Positions 4,163 through 16,533 of a stretch of 64,000 nt of DNA are shown piece after piece. The stretch comes from Roseobacter cerasinus (GTDB lineage Bacteria > Pseudomonadota > Alphaproteobacteria > Rhodobacterales > Rhodobacteraceae): assembly GCF_009811755.1 (NCBI RefSeq), contig NZ_BLIV01000007.1, forward strand, positions 124,001 to 188,000, given 5' to 3'. Numbering within the stretch: the first letter of the stretch is position 1; every line of letters starts with the position of its first letter. The notes beneath the pieces were generated by a model. It was not told the origin of the DNA. It saw only the letters and a list, made by a program, of their open reading frames with translations, and did no database searches. The position numbers were made by a program, and so were the translations under genes.

Positions 4163-5386
4163 TCAGACCACCTGCGGCTTGGGCCGCATCACCAGCCAGA
4201 TCAGCGCACAGCCCGCCAGCACGAGGAAGGGGATCATCGCGATATTCACCGCCGCCCAACCCTCTTCCGCCGACCCGCCCGAGCAGTTCATCAACCCACC
4301 CGAGGCGAGCGAAGCCAGCGTCACTCCACCGAACACGAGCAGGTCATTCACCCCCTGGAGGCGCCCCCGCTCATGCGGCTCATGCGCTCCGGCCAGCATC
4401 GTCGTGGCGCCGATGAAGCCGAAGTTCCACCCAAGCCCCAAGAGAATCAGCGCCACAAAGAAATGCCCCAGCGCGACCCCAGAGAGCGCCACCGCGCCTG
4501 CCGCGCCCAGGATCAGCAGCCCCAGCCCCATGATCCGCTCAACTCCAAAGCGTACAATCAGATGCCCGGTGAAGAACGATGGCGCAAACATTGCCAGCAC
4601 ATGGCCGGTGACCACATTCGAGGCATCTGCCACCGCGAACCCGCAACCGACGACGGCAAGCGGCGTCGACGTCATCACCAGGTTCATCAGCGCGTAAGAC
4701 ACCATCGCGCAGATCACCGCGACCGCGATACGTGGTGTCTTCAGAAGCTCTATTACAGAGCGCCCGCGGGGCGAATCTTCGGTCGGCTTCGGCGGCGTCG
4801 GAATGTCGAGGAAGGCAAAGAGCAGCATGCCTAGCACATTCAGCGCCATCGCCGCCATGTAGACGGGGAAGAACCGCATCACGGTCGCATCGGGGGTGCT
4901 GCTGGTCAGATACCCCACCAGTTGTGGCCCGATGATCGCCGACAAGAGCCCGCCCGCCATGACATAGGAAATCGCCTTCGGGCGATAGCTGTCCGAGGCC
5001 GTATCGGCGGCGGCAAACCGGAAAAACCCCTGTGAGGACATATAGATGCCGGTCAAATAGCTGCCGATCAGAAACATCCAGAAGTTCGACAGCGTCAGCG
5101 CATAAGCGCAGATCGCGGCCCCCGCCAGCCCGCCAAGCGCGCCCACTATCAACCCCGCCCGCCGCCCATAGCGCTGCATCAGCGTCGAGAGCCAGGGTGC
5201 CGTGGTCATCGAGCCAAAGACGATCATCGAGATCGGCAATGTCGCGAGACAGGCATTCACCGCCATCTGCTGCCCGGCCAGCCCGCCGATCACGAAGATC
5301 ATCGTGATCTGGCTGCCCAGAAAGGCTTGCGCCATCACGAGCACCATCACATTGCGCCTGGCGCGATTATCATCCGTCTCGGGCAT
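4163..5386 (-). CDS. MFS transporter
   Basis: 407 residues, 12 predicted hydrophobic segments, starting at the ATG on the minus strand at 5386 (MPETDDNRARRN). It has a loop 2-3 motif related to the MFS signature (LMQRYGRRAG), a central hydrophilic linker rich in Pro and Lys around residues 200-215, and a second six-helix half. Inner-membrane secondary transport; the substrate is not evident. An upstream open frame extends to 5971 but has no coding character and runs antisense to cobK, so it is excluded. It is transcribed divergently from cobK with only 75 bases between starts. Confidence 0.85.
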   Translation of the reverse strand: MPETDDNRARRNVMVLVMAQAFLGSQITMIFVIGGLAGQQMAVNACLATLPISMIVFGSMTTAPWLSTLMQRYGRRAGLIVGALGGLAGAAICAYALTLSNFWMFLIGSYLTGIYMSSQGFFRFAAADTASDSYRPKAISYVMAGGLLSAIIGPQLVGYLTSSTPDATVMRFFPVYMAAMALNVLGMLLFAFLDIPTPPKPTEDSPRGRSVIELLKTPRIAVAVICAMVSYALMNLVMTSTPLAVVGCGFAVADASNVVTGHVLAMFAPSFFTGHLIVRFGVERIMGLGLLILGAAGAVALSGVALGHFFVALILLGLGWNFGFIGATTMLAGAHEPHERGRLQGVNDLLVFGGVTLASLASGGLMNCSGGSAEEGWAAVNIAMIPFLVLAGCALIWLVMRPKPQVV

Positions 5387-13634: not shown

Positions 13635-14417
13635 TCAGGCGGCCAGATCAACCCAGACCGGCACATGATCCGAGGGTTTGTCCCGCCCGCGCACATCCTT
13701 GTCGATTGCGCAGTCCTGCAGCATGTCAGCCGTCTGCGGGCAGAGCAGCAGATGGTCGATCCGGATGCCGTTGTTGCGATTCCAGGCCCCGGCCTGATAA
13801 TCCCAGAAGCTGTAGTGGCCCGGACCTTGCGTCCGTGCCCTGAACGCATCCGTCAGGCCAAGATTGAGAAGCGCCCGGAACGCGGTGCGGCTGTCCAACC
13901 GGAACAGCGCATCCTCGCGCCAGCTGTCGGGCTTGGCCGCATCCTCGGCTTGGGGAATGATGTTGTAATCGCCCGCCATGAGAAAGGGCGTCTCTTGCGC
14001 CAGCAGCTCTTCTGCACGGGCCTGCAAACGGGCCATCCAGCCTAGTTTATAGTCGTATTTCGGCCCGGGCACCGGGTTTCCGTTCGGCAAATACAGCCCG
14101 CAAATGCGCACTGCCTGCTGCGCGCCCATGACCGTGGCTTCGATATAGCGGGCCTGTGCATCCTCCGGATCCCCGGGCAGGCCCCGGCTGACATCCTCGA
14201 GCGGCAGCTTCGACAGGATGGCCACGCCATTGAAGCTTTTCTGGCCATGGGTTTCGACGTTGTAGCCGCGCTCCTCAAAGAGCTCGGACGGAAAGGCGTC
14301 GTCGACCGATTTGATCTCCTGCAGCAGCACGACATCCGGCTGGGCTGTGTCGAGCCATTCGGGCAGGGCCGCGATTCGCGCCTTGATCCCGTTGATGTTG
14401 AATGTGGCTATCTTCAT
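13635..14417 (-). CDS. xthA: Exodeoxyribonuclease III
   Basis: 260 residues, full length for the family. AP endonuclease and 3'-5' exonuclease in base-excision repair. EEP fold with MKIATFNINGIKAR at the start, LLQEIKS (metal-binding Glu), GLYLPNGNP, MAGDYNIIP (catalytic Asp-Asn), RIDHLLLCP and the final SDHVPVWVDL with the catalytic Asp-His. The promoter side faces the TTSM-repeat gene across the 335-base regulatory interval. Confidence 0.93.
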   Translation of the reverse strand: MKIATFNINGIKARIAALPEWLDTAQPDVVLLQEIKSVDDAFPSELFEERGYNVETHGQKSFNGVAILSKLPLEDVSRGLPGDPEDAQARYIEATVMGAQQAVRICGLYLPNGNPVPGPKYDYKLGWMARLQARAEELLAQETPFLMAGDYNIIPQAEDAAKPDSWREDALFRLDSRTAFRALLNLGLTDAFRARTQGPGHYSFWDYQAGAWNRNNGIRIDHLLLCPQTADMLQDCAIDKDVRGRDKPSDHVPVWVDLAA

Positions 14418-14752
14418 CTGTGGCCCTCCGCACGCTCGACTCAGCTATCGCGCAACAGCTGCCGCAGGGCAAGGGCCGGGCCAAAATTCAGCCGCTGGGC
14501 GTGGGTGATTCTCGTTAAGGGTTCGTCGCGCGCCGCCAAACAACCTTAATATCCACAGGGTTATCCACTGTGGATAAAAAAAAATTAACCAATTTTCCCG
14601 TCATAAGTTTTCAAAGTCTGTCGCGATCTAGGGCGGGGCGTTCGTGTGGATAACCAAGTGTTAACACATTCTTAACGCGAAAAAAAGTTGGAAACTCTCC
14701 TTAAACGAGCAAGCGTTGAAGGGCGAATAAATCGTCTGGAAAGGGATGTACG
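14418..14752. promoter_or_regulatory. Divergent regulatory interval with DnaA boxes and a CtrA-type site
   Basis: 335 bases without a gene between xthA (minus) and the TTSM-repeat gene (plus). DnaA-type boxes: ATATCCACA 14549-14557 (one mismatch), TTATCCACT 14561-14569 overlapping a perfect TGTGGATAA 14569-14577, and another perfect TGTGGATAA 14645-14653. The middle two make the 17-bp palindrome TTATCCACTGTGGATAA. CtrA-type sites: TTAACC at 14585-14590 and TTAA-N7-TTAAC at 14661-14676. A-rich runs lie at 14576-14584 and 14680-14686. AAGGGA at 14741-14746 is the ribosome-binding site of the next gene. Binding is predicted, not shown. Confidence 0.6.
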
Positions 14753-15034
14753 ATGAACACCAACACTTTGCTCAAAATCGCTGATGTGGATGAATTTGAC
14801 GGCTGCACCACCAGCCTGCATGGCGGCGCTGGAACGGCGCTCTTTACCACCAGCATGGGGCCTGCGGGGTCTGACATGATGAGCGGCGAGGCCACAGGTC
14901 TTTTCACCACCTCCATGGGCCCGGAAGCTGACGCCTGGTCCGGATCGGAGACCGGCCAGTACACCACCAGCATGACGCCGCGTGGCGATGTTCTGTCGGG
15001 TGCGGCAACCGGTCTCTTCACCACATCCATGTAA
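14753..15034 (+). CDS. Small TTSM-repeat protein, function unknown
   Basis: 93 residues, start ATG 14753 with AAGGGA six bases upstream. The body is a tandem repeat: residues 28-47, 48-66 and 67-85 are three units beginning T-[AG]-[LQ]-[FY]-TTSM-[GT]-P and ending SG-x-[EA]. A truncated fourth unit, TGLFTTSM, is the exact C-terminus (86-93). A degenerate earlier copy, C-TTSL, sits at 18-22. So [FY]TTSM occurs four times, plus one variant with the only Cys. There is no signal peptide and no membrane segment; the first 16 residues (MNTNTLLKIADVDEFD) are leader-like and acidic. I recognise no function; it may match a Rhodobacterales family catalogued as DUF6749 (from memory). The partner gene follows 92 bases later on the same strand. 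Confidence 0.8.
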   Translation: MNTNTLLKIADVDEFDGCTTSLHGGAGTALFTTSMGPAGSDMMSGEATGLFTTSMGPEADAWSGSETGQYTTSMTPRGDVLSGAATGLFTTSM

Positions 15035-15126
15035 CACATAACACCCATGCCTCGACCTGTCCCTTTGGTGGCGGGTCGGGCTCGCGCCTTGTGCGGCGGT
15101 TTCAGGAAGGCAAAGGAAGAACCCCC

Positions 15127-16179
15127 ATGTCTAACGTCGTCTCTCTGGGACTGCCGCGCAGGCTATCACTGGCCGAGCGCCATATGCTCTTGATGAAGAA
15201 TTTCGCCTGCAACCGGCGCAAATCGGATGATGTTTTCTGGCTCAAGGAAAACGCGGAGCTTCTGAATGTTTTGGCCAGCAGCGGTGCCATGTTATCTGAA
15301 GAGGCGTTCGAACCCTACAGGCAGGTCTACCACGGGCTCAGAGAGCGGCTGCAGTTTTTCCCGCAATACTACCGGTTTTTGCTGTCGATCTGCCTGGATC
15401 TTGAAGACCTCGGGATTGGCGCGGGCGAGGGTACTGCCCTGTGCGACTGGGTGCAGCGGATGGGATTGGTCGACGCTGAACTGTCGGATCTGCAGCGTGC
15501 AGAGGCGCAGCGGTTGCTGTCCCGGCGCGGCGTCGGGACCGAGGATGCGGCCTTGACCCGGCGGCTCAAGCACTTCATCGCCCGGTCGGACACCTTTGCG
15601 CTGCCGAACAAGAAAGCAGCCTATGAGCTGACACATATCGTGTTCTACCTGTCCGACTACGGTGTGAAGCACCCGATGCTGGACGAAAACGCCATTGTCA
15701 GCCTGGAGTTTGCGGGGCTTCTTGCCTATCTGGATCAGGACGTGGATTTGCTGGCTGAGGTCTGCGTTGCGATGCGCTTTGCCGGTCGGCGCCCCAGTGT
15801 GATCTGGGAAGACTGGATCGCCCGCCAGATGCGCGGCTTTGCGCTGCGCGCCTCCGGCCCCTCGGCCAATGATGCCTATCACGAATATCTGGTCACCAGC
15901 TGGTGGGCGCAGTTTGCCGATCAGCCCAGCTTTCCGGGCGTGCCGGATGCTGCTGGTCTCTTTGTGACGCGCGATGTGGCCGGGAAAAGCCCGCTGCGCG
16001 CGATGTCGGAATACATGTTCCACCTGGGCCCGGCCCGCAGCGGGGATTGGAGCCTGATGCGTGATGCGCTCTCAGATGCGGTGGGCGCGGATGGTGAGGT
16101 GATCCTCGCAGGGGCCGAGCAATCGTCAGATCGGTTCGGGGCCTTTTTCGAAGGGTTTTCACGTGCTGATTTTTTATAA
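15127..16179 (+). CDS. Uncharacterised 350-residue partner of the TTSM-repeat protein
   Basis: 350 residues, start ATG 15127 behind AAAGGAAGA. Mostly helical by inspection, no signal peptide or membrane segment. Recognisable blocks are a basic N-terminus, WVQRMGLVDAE (around 108), FALPNKKAAYELTHIVFYLS with DYG next (157-179), and YHEYLVTSWWAQF (251-263). The His, Tyr and Asp in the YELTH...DYG block look like a conserved core, but I cannot assign an activity. It may match the family catalogued as DUF6902 (from memory). It has no close neighbour other than the repeat protein upstream, which shares its strand and promoter, and a 9-bp AT-rich hairpin covers its stop codon. Confidence 0.8.
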   Translation: MSNVVSLGLPRRLSLAERHMLLMKNFACNRRKSDDVFWLKENAELLNVLASSGAMLSEEAFEPYRQVYHGLRERLQFFPQYYRFLLSICLDLEDLGIGAGEGTALCDWVQRMGLVDAELSDLQRAEAQRLLSRRGVGTEDAALTRRLKHFIARSDTFALPNKKAAYELTHIVFYLSDYGVKHPMLDENAIVSLEFAGLLAYLDQDVDLLAEVCVAMRFAGRRPSVIWEDWIARQMRGFALRASGPSANDAYHEYLVTSWWAQFADQPSFPGVPDAAGLFVTRDVAGKSPLRAMSEYMFHLGPARSGDWSLMRDALSDAVGADGEVILAGAEQSSDRFGAFFEGFSRADFL

Positions 16180-16209: not shown

Positions 16210-16533
16210 CTACATGGAGAAGGATGTGCCGCAGCCGCATGAACTGGACGCATTTGGATTGTCGATGACAAAGCGCGCGCCAATCAGTTCTTCGGTGAAG
16301 TCGATTGTGGCGCCGCCCAGAAAGGGCAGGGACACGGCATCGACCACAACTTTCTGCCCCGCGCCTTCCAGCACAAGATCATCGTCGCGCGGCTCATCCA
16401 ACGCAATCTCATACTGAAAGCCGGAACACCCACCCCCTTCGACAGCGACGCGCAGCGCCTTGCCATCCGTGGCGGCGCCGATCTCGGCCAGTCTGTCAAA
16501 AGCGCGGGGCGTGACTTTGGGCGGAAGTTGCAT
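16210..16533 (-). CDS. erpA: A-type iron-sulfur cluster carrier/insertion protein
   Basis: 107 residues, start ATG at 16533. Carries and delivers Fe-S clusters to apoproteins. The three ligand Cys residues of the A-type family are all present: C36 in EGGGCSGFQY, and C99 and C101 in SSSCGCGTSFSM at the end. IscA, SufA and ErpA cannot be separated by sequence alone; no isc or suf operon is next to it, which favours a stand-alone ErpA-like role. It is divergent from dgt with an 80-base gap. Confidence 0.88.
   Translation of the reverse strand: MQLPPKVTPRAFDRLAEIGAATDGKALRVAVEGGGCSGFQYEIALDEPRDDDLVLEGAGQKVVVDAVSLPFLGGATIDFTEELIGARFVIDNPNASSSCGCGTSFSM

Follow-up and report, generated by a model that had tools for sequence, protein, structure and literature searches.

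A repeat peptide and a DUF6902 protein encoded side by side in Roseobacter cerasinus: a putative peptide-modification pair

Introduction

What could be the role of a small protein composed of copies of one four-residue word, when it is encoded directly before a large helical protein? This question is raised by positions 14418 to 16179 of a 64,000-nucleotide stretch of the Roseobacter cerasinus genome (contig NZ_BLIV01000007.1, positions 124,001 to 188,000), which was analysed as a whole and is referred to here as the window. The open reading frame (ORF) P0001 (14753..15034, + strand) codes for a precursor-like repeat protein of 93 residues. It is followed by P0002 (15127..16179, + strand), which codes for a 350-residue protein assigned to DUF6902 by profile match, all-helical in its AlphaFold model and putatively a peptide-modifying, epimerase-like enzyme. 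The first-pass annotation of this DNA had described a same-direction pair 92 bases apart with a good ribosome-binding site for each gene, and this description holds. Both genes are on the + strand with a gap of 92 nt, and the sites are AAAGGG (14740..14745, +), which is kept in the close relatives compared, and AAGGAAG (15113..15119, +).

The two genes have the appearance of a peptide-modification system not described so far. It is quite likely that P0001 and P0002 are a substrate and its enzyme, whatever the chemistry. It is also, on balance, probable that they form a two-gene module resembling those of ribosomally synthesised and post-translationally modified peptides (RiPPs), in which P0002 would modify P0001, with C-alpha epimerisation as the most likely chemistry and with DnaA-linked control.

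Pairing of the two genes

DUF6902 is present in 108 of 394 sampled genomes of Rhodobacteraceae. The surroundings of the gene were fetched for 105 of these (G139, G321 and G370, broken at contig ends, were excluded and the partial G181 was kept), and 80 named loci, the best 80 of 368 relatives, were added; the nearest named DUF6902 relatives of P0002 among these 80 belong to Roseobacter, Rhodobacteraceae. Proteins more than 98.5% alike were merged, which gave 163 distinct loci, although related loci are not independent of each other. An automatic repeat test was passed by 175 of 185 loci. Eleven repeat ORFs were picked and 15 core seeds were set by hand, loci interrupted by N or by contig ends were retained, and start codons were assigned by script, some of them surely wrongly (L079, L111).

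A repeat protein is encoded upstream of DUF6902 on the same strand in 160 of the 163 distinct loci, with a median gap of 64.5 nt. The exceptions are one locus cut at a contig end (L244) and two, L145 and L165, where no repeat protein was found. Since the same architecture recurs in so many distinct loci, it is not a product of chance. The reverse comparison gives the same picture: a profile of 36 precursors (A4) matched none of 50 genomes without DUF6902 and 14 of 15 genomes with it, the single miss being G099 with its unusual MMCCS core. When P0001 was used as the lone query, relatives were found in 33 of the 394 genomes, about 30 of them real, and coordinate comparison placed 30 of the 33 beside DUF6902. 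As for the others, the match in G367 lies in a region without DUF6902, where no precursor was seen, and that in G079 holds three internal stops. The match in G250 is at the start of a contig (C4), while the DUF6902 gene of this genome is near the end of another. A further DUF6902-type gene, L299, which is outside the 394 genomes and the 163 loci, is likewise accompanied by a repeat protein, with the new core STSSF. The pair is also found in a relative of Ruegeria pomeroyi (L200).

In the genomes sampled the pairing is thus almost obligate. The first-pass annotation had proposed to check whether the genes stay side by side, and had named homologues occurring mostly apart, or a larger protein resembling an unrelated known enzyme, as outcomes that would speak against its proposal; the genes do stay together, and neither outcome was observed. 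At one locus (L160), two successive precursor-like genes (about 4228-4509 and 4621-4884), with cores FTSGS and FGSSC, stand before a single DUF6902 gene.

The repeat protein

P0001 consists of a leader, residues 1 to about 24, and four units thereafter. The core copies are FTTSM at residues 31-35 (14843..14857, +), where F31-M35 is invariant in 13 sequences, and, as placed by the alignment of relatives, FTTSM at residues 51-55 (14903..14917, +), YTTSM at residues 70-74 (14960..14974, +) and FTTSM at residues 89-93 (15017..15031, +), the C-terminal end. The earlier description of a 93-residue protein built from TTSM units and ending on the last one is therefore correct for three FTTSM and one YTTSM. 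It does not extend to TTSL at residues 19-22, where most of the 12 close relatives have D-LHSG or a sequence like it, nor to a role for the single Cys beside it (residue 18), which is shared by one of the 12 (L169). The repeat exists at the protein level only, as Tandem Repeats Finder reported no DNA array at score 30. P0001 has no match above cut-off in Pfam or NCBIfam and is predicted to be disordered (AlphaFold with 13 sequences, predicted local distance difference test, pLDDT, 40). Family matches of seven homologous repeat proteins, mostly below cut-off, were judged to be low-complexity artefacts; one was above it (Herpes_UL35 for L062, 39.6 versus 25 bits), and no single stretch of this protein passes.

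A typical unit of the 160 genes reads G[DE]..[VT].[ML]F and then a four-residue core, after which AP or GP is frequent. There are 48 different tetrapeptide cores, in 2 to 20 copies per gene (median 7), and the protein ends exactly on a core in 108 of the 160. Core position 2 is Ser in 117 genes, Thr in 36, Cys in 4, and Asn, Pro or Ala in one each, so that S, T or C is found in 157 of 160.

These cores are nearly uniform within a gene and variable between species. In 143 genes of the F type, 936 of 967 units (96.8%) carry the commonest core of their own gene, and 123 of the 143 genes are fully uniform. The remaining 20 include some detection artefacts and some real mixtures, such as TTGS/TTSC. 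Two genes taken at random share a core with a probability of 0.078. Identical core pairs within a gene differ in DNA in 88% of cases on average, and in 78 of 144 genes with a core Ser, the same Ser is spelt by both AGY and TCN codons. Because of these codon differences, recent copying alone does not account for the uniformity, although recently duplicated units do occur in some arrays (L068). At least 67 changes of the tetrapeptide are required on a tree of 158 DUF6902 proteins built with FastTree. The proteins of L068 and L191 are 95.5% identical in DUF6902, but the core is TSGS in every unit of the one and SSGS in every unit of the other; in the first, second and last units, which could be matched by their flanks, the codon switches are ACG/TCC, ACG/TCG and ACT/TCT. 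The differing codons, together with a switch made in every copy, indicate that selection keeps the cores alike. Some partner must read the word and demand the agreement of all copies. It is unusual in evolution for a repeated word of four residues to be rewritten in such a coordinated way. The precursor of L090 has two cores, FCSWS and FSSLS, which alternate in its second half.

The DUF6902 protein and its superfamily

P0002 matches DUF6902 (PF21843) over nearly its whole length (E 1.4e-138, 462 bits versus a cut-off of 27, residues 1-347 to profile positions 1-351). It also matches DUF6895 (PF21836; E 2.7e-21, 76.6 bits versus 23.8, residues 28-227), in part, over profile positions 20-235 of 289. 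Pfam gave no other family with E values up to 1, and NCBIfam gave none at all. The statement of the first-pass annotation that this protein has no recognised function is accordingly right in that no function is assigned to DUF6902, which was not mentioned in the literature searched, and wrong in that the family itself was already known to Pfam. Its description as all-helical agrees with the predicted structure (AlphaFold with 75 sequences, pLDDT 94.3, predicted template modelling score 0.92), which contains 16 helices and two short strands.

Residues K40, E41, E44, E118, D121, R124, E126, R133, H170, D207, E211, D249 and H252 are invariant in DUF6902, a pattern of conservation that appears enzyme-like. 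Three DUF6895-type proteins are 18-19% identical to P0002 and share with it Y166, H170, F173, G179, D207, E211, H252, L255 and the start Met as invariant positions. The YELTH...DYG block that had been singled out earlier proves to be the signature of the superfamily, Y166-x3-H170-x2-F173-x5-G179 (15622..15663, +), which is invariant in four DUF6902 and three DUF6895-type proteins.

It is important to consider DUF6895 further. A lasso-peptide epimerase has been reported for this family, according to the title of an article (Shi et al., ACS Catal 2026) cited in PMC13352647. Five DUF6895 matches outside DUF6902 were above cut-off (G770, G840, G396, G989 and G242) and all were inspected; the sub-threshold L258 and L259 were not counted in the family. 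A small peptide gene directly precedes the enzyme gene in all five loci: L260 (8251-8850), L261 (9907-10338), L262 (9849-10085), L296 (925-1410) and L300 (1092-1385), where the enzyme gene is short and may be broken. L260 has two peptides before the enzyme gene, and a C39/C70-like cysteine protease and a methyltransferase are encoded near by. The L261 peptide contains two similar stretches, GPWYIYKE and GPWFVLKE, and that of L296 has two cores, DWTFVSPNYVYKGS and DWTFISHNYVYKGS; no further pathway genes were obvious in 16 kb at L296, as judged from sequence starts. By eye, a leader-like stretch with GI[IV] or GAI is present in four of the five loci and a W-aromatic stretch in all. These peptides are possibly a further undescribed class.

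Small peptides before all five DUF6895-type genes, together with the repeat protein at L299, make action on a neighbouring peptide the parsimonious function for DUF6895 and DUF6902 to share, and homology would make the neighbour of the precursor-like ORF its tailoring enzyme. Of the options offered by the first-pass annotation, that of a precursor and a modifying enzyme is favoured by the DUF6895 match of P0002 and by the peptides at the five loci, that is, by layout. A candidate substrate for DUF6902 is now in hand, and the arrangement suggests that the whole superfamily acts on small peptides encoded near by, in this case away from gene clusters of the usual kind.

The promoter region

The DNA before P0001, about 335 nt of which is included when the stretch is started at 14418, contains several sites of known consensus: we take the 9-mers below to be DnaA boxes, GANTC to be the CcrM site and TTAA-N7-TTAA to be the CtrA site. 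A perfect DnaA box, TTATCCACA (TGTGGATAA on the + strand), is located 184 nt before the start codon (14569..14577, - strand), and a second one in the same orientation 108 nt before it (14645..14653, - strand). Boxes with one mismatch are found at 14549-14557 and 14561-14569, and a CtrA-type site at 14661..14675 (+), the only one in the window, where 0.03 are expected. Four DnaA boxes, two of them perfect and two with one mismatch, are thus clustered at 14549-14675 together with the CtrA-type site and an A-rich tract. The genome has 18 perfect boxes in 4.47 Mb, and only the two located here, 76 bp apart, lie less than 1 kb from one another on the same contig.

The boxes are also a property of the family. 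A perfect box is present in 98 of 151 upstream regions and two or more in 59, mostly in one orientation. For 144 TGTGGATAA sites of the family, 68 are in the -110 and -120 bins and 46 in the -190 bin. Altogether 158 perfect boxes were counted in 60.4 kb of upstream DNA versus 13 in the other 1283.5 kb of the loci, a 258-fold enrichment, and in a thinned set the 9-mer occurs in 73 of 119 regions, where 0.2 are expected. GANTC is found 7.0 times per kb upstream versus 0.84 elsewhere in the loci. No perfect DnaA box was present in any of 20 empty sites examined, of 22 that keep the neighbouring xthA- and erpA-like genes and lack the pair. The fixed positions before the precursor, the lack of boxes at these 20 sites and the large distance of the locus from dnaA and hemE show that the boxes belong to this operon. 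DnaA-linked control of the expression of the pair is likely on the evidence of these motifs, and would, if true, tie the peptide product to chromosome replication.

Among 150 upstream regions, 26 contain TTAA-N7-TTAA and 17 the variant with N6 spacing, compared with 1-4 in shuffled sequences; 22 of 27 sites are at -80 to -107. Fourteen of the 26 regions form the FTTSM group nearest the window (enzymes 58-77% identical, and the window itself) and the remaining 12 are dispersed. On this count a general role of CtrA control was rejected, and the site is retained as a local feature of the FTTSM group. In addition, a conserved element resembling GTGCAAGCGT lies about 50 nt before the precursor start, in the form GYGCAANC in 37 of 151 regions.

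The chromosomal setting

The pair is flanked upstream by an xthA-like gene (Exo_endo_phos, 13635-14417, minus strand) and downstream by an erpA-like gene (Fe-S_biosyn, 16210-16533, minus strand), labels which are our own reading of the family matches. The seven neighbours scanned in the window match Exo_endo_phos, Fe-S_biosyn, HD/HD_assoc, arginyl-tRNA synthetase, HNH, haem peroxidase and SPOR; no lasso cyclase or leader peptidase gene is among them. The chromosomal position is fixed, as xthA is upstream and divergent in 144 of 146 long loci; erpA is downstream in 133 and dgt in 131 of these. Both xthA and erpA are present in 29 of 30 genomes lacking DUF6902 (hand count). In 22 of the 30 they lie on one contig in the same arrangement, at most 2 kb apart, and in 13 at most 0.5 kb apart. 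Mobile or phage origin was rejected, as the neighbours are fixed and no relative was found in viral contigs or plasmids. A terminator or attenuator hairpin between the two genes was not supported (median z -0.7, with 25% of 152 below -2).

Proposed mechanism and alternative explanations

In the mechanism that we propose, P0001 would be an unfolded multi-core substrate, with a short N-terminal leader followed by several units of the type G[DE]xx..F-core, the core here being TTSM. P0002 would be its dedicated modifying enzyme, acting on core residues, and homology with DUF6895 points to C-alpha epimerisation (L to D) by His and acidic residues. Binding of DnaA at the paired boxes would tie expression to chromosome replication, and the CtrA-type site may assist in the lineage around the window. 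Cleavage and export of the product may follow, and it would have some role of its own; that this is a signal or an identity tag is speculation. A tentative and rather unlikely extension is that a multi-copy peptide with D-amino acids is made by Rhodobacteraceae in step with DnaA-controlled replication and that its core is a species-specific identity code, similar to a pheromone or a kin tag, with one word per genome in all copies, rewritten copy by copy when lineages split.

Several observations weigh against the proposed modification of P0001 by P0002. The support for a RiPP-like module is that of layout, not yet of chemistry. Epimerisation is linked to DUF6895 through a cited title, and more than one activity may be present in this family. 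Nor is there independent support from the fold, since P0002 matches no solved structure: a Foldseek search of the PDB gave nothing below E 0.25, and a sequence-profile search of solved structures gave two matches (E 0.32-0.34), to an unrelated protein only. D249 and R304 are also invariant in the comparison with DUF6895-type proteins, but they are aligned across gaps only. No protease or exporter is present among the seven scanned neighbours, and none was sought in the rest of the genome. The loci L145 and L165 have no recognisable repeat protein beside DUF6902. It is also possible that the enzyme does not read the core, as the nearly identical enzymes of L068 and L191 are accompanied by different cores. 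Coevolution of enzyme and core was not significant in comparison with neutral traits simulated on the tree, the observed maximum being reached in 95 of 150, 25 of 120, 27 of 150 and 92 of 150 simulations for core positions 1 to 4. There is thus no evidence for the enzyme as the reader of the core, and a partner elsewhere in the cell is equally possible. Single columns gave striking values, such as column 88 for core position 3 (25 of 46 pairs versus 7.0 expected), but no association is claimed, as simulated neutral traits do equally well.

Three other explanations have to be weighed. The two proteins might be a binding pair in which no chemistry takes place, P0002 being a helical receptor, chaperone or scaffold and the uniform core a docking motif bound many times. 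A uniform motif in a disordered chain does resemble a multivalent ligand, the copy number ranges from 2 to 20, and among the weak fold matches of P0002 is a helical repeat protein designed to bind peptides (7ue2, E 0.43). However, the cores co-vary with DUF6902 columns no more than neutral traits do and differ between L068 and L191, whose DUF6902 proteins are 95.5% identical; full uniformity is lacking in 20 of the 143 genes, several of which have two genuine types of core. The many invariant His, acidic and basic residues of DUF6902, and the epimerase reported by title for the homologous DUF6895, also speak against this explanation, which we consider unlikely. Ser, Thr and Cys are classic targets of RiPP modification. 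Their presence at core position 2 in 157 of 160 genes would suit another chemistry at these residues, for example dehydration, acylation or cyclisation. It seems somewhat less probable still, as P0002 matches DUF6902 and DUF6895 alone, with kinase, lyase, ATP-grasp and radical-SAM families absent from the matches, the reported epimerase belongs to its closest family after DUF6902, and A, P or N is tolerated at this position.

It is very improbable that the DNA itself is what matters, the intergenic region being a replication-control site (oriC-like, or datA-like for DnaA titration) with the genes as passengers. The sole pair of neighbouring perfect boxes among 18 in the genome, 76 bp apart, the density of GANTC (7.0 versus 0.84 per kb) and a weak minimum of cumulative GC skew near 8 kb of the window, at no great distance from the locus, with later reversals, would be in agreement with it. 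However, dnaA lies no closer than 1.1 Mb to the locus and hemE no closer than 0.49 Mb in the 13 of 16 genomes where they share a contig, as calculated by hand on the assumption that contigs are circular. The boxes hold fixed positions relative to the precursor start codon and are absent from all 20 sites that keep xthA and erpA but not the pair, and both proteins are under strong selection.

Comparison with known systems

Among the publications listed on RiPPs in Roseobacter or Rhodobacteraceae, none appeared to resemble the P0001-P0002 pair. Repeat precursors with many cores are known from the cyanobactins. They are also described for fungal Kex2-processed repeat proteins (PMC7329392). Both of these systems share with P0001 an arrangement of several short, nearly identical cores in a single precursor, with variable spacers between them. 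However, P0001 is bacterial, its core has four residues and its locus consists of two genes standing alone; no processing site was identified in it, and no protease among the seven scanned neighbours.

MslH, the epimerase of the lasso peptide MS-271, provides a comparison for the chemistry. According to PMC10406935, this enzyme has a calcineurin-like fold with Ca(II) and carries out C-alpha epimerisation by means of two His/Asp pairs. The reaction of P0002 would be of the same type, C-alpha epimerisation in a ribosomal precursor, and its two His and acidic residues recall the His/Asp pairs by analogy. The structures differ, as P0002 is predicted to be all-helical and the calcineurin-like metallophosphoesterase fold is absent among the Foldseek matches listed.

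The closest comparison is with DUF6895. Residues Y166, H170, F173, G179, D207, E211 and H252 are common to P0002 and this family, and a small peptide is encoded upstream of P0002 as well as of the five DUF6895-type genes inspected. DUF6902 is nevertheless a separate Pfam family, and no lasso genes accompany P0002 among its seven scanned neighbours. The peptides also differ in type: P0001 belongs to a class with 2 to 20 copies of a tetrapeptide repeat, while the peptides of DUF6895 have a leader containing GI[IV], followed by a W-aromatic stretch.

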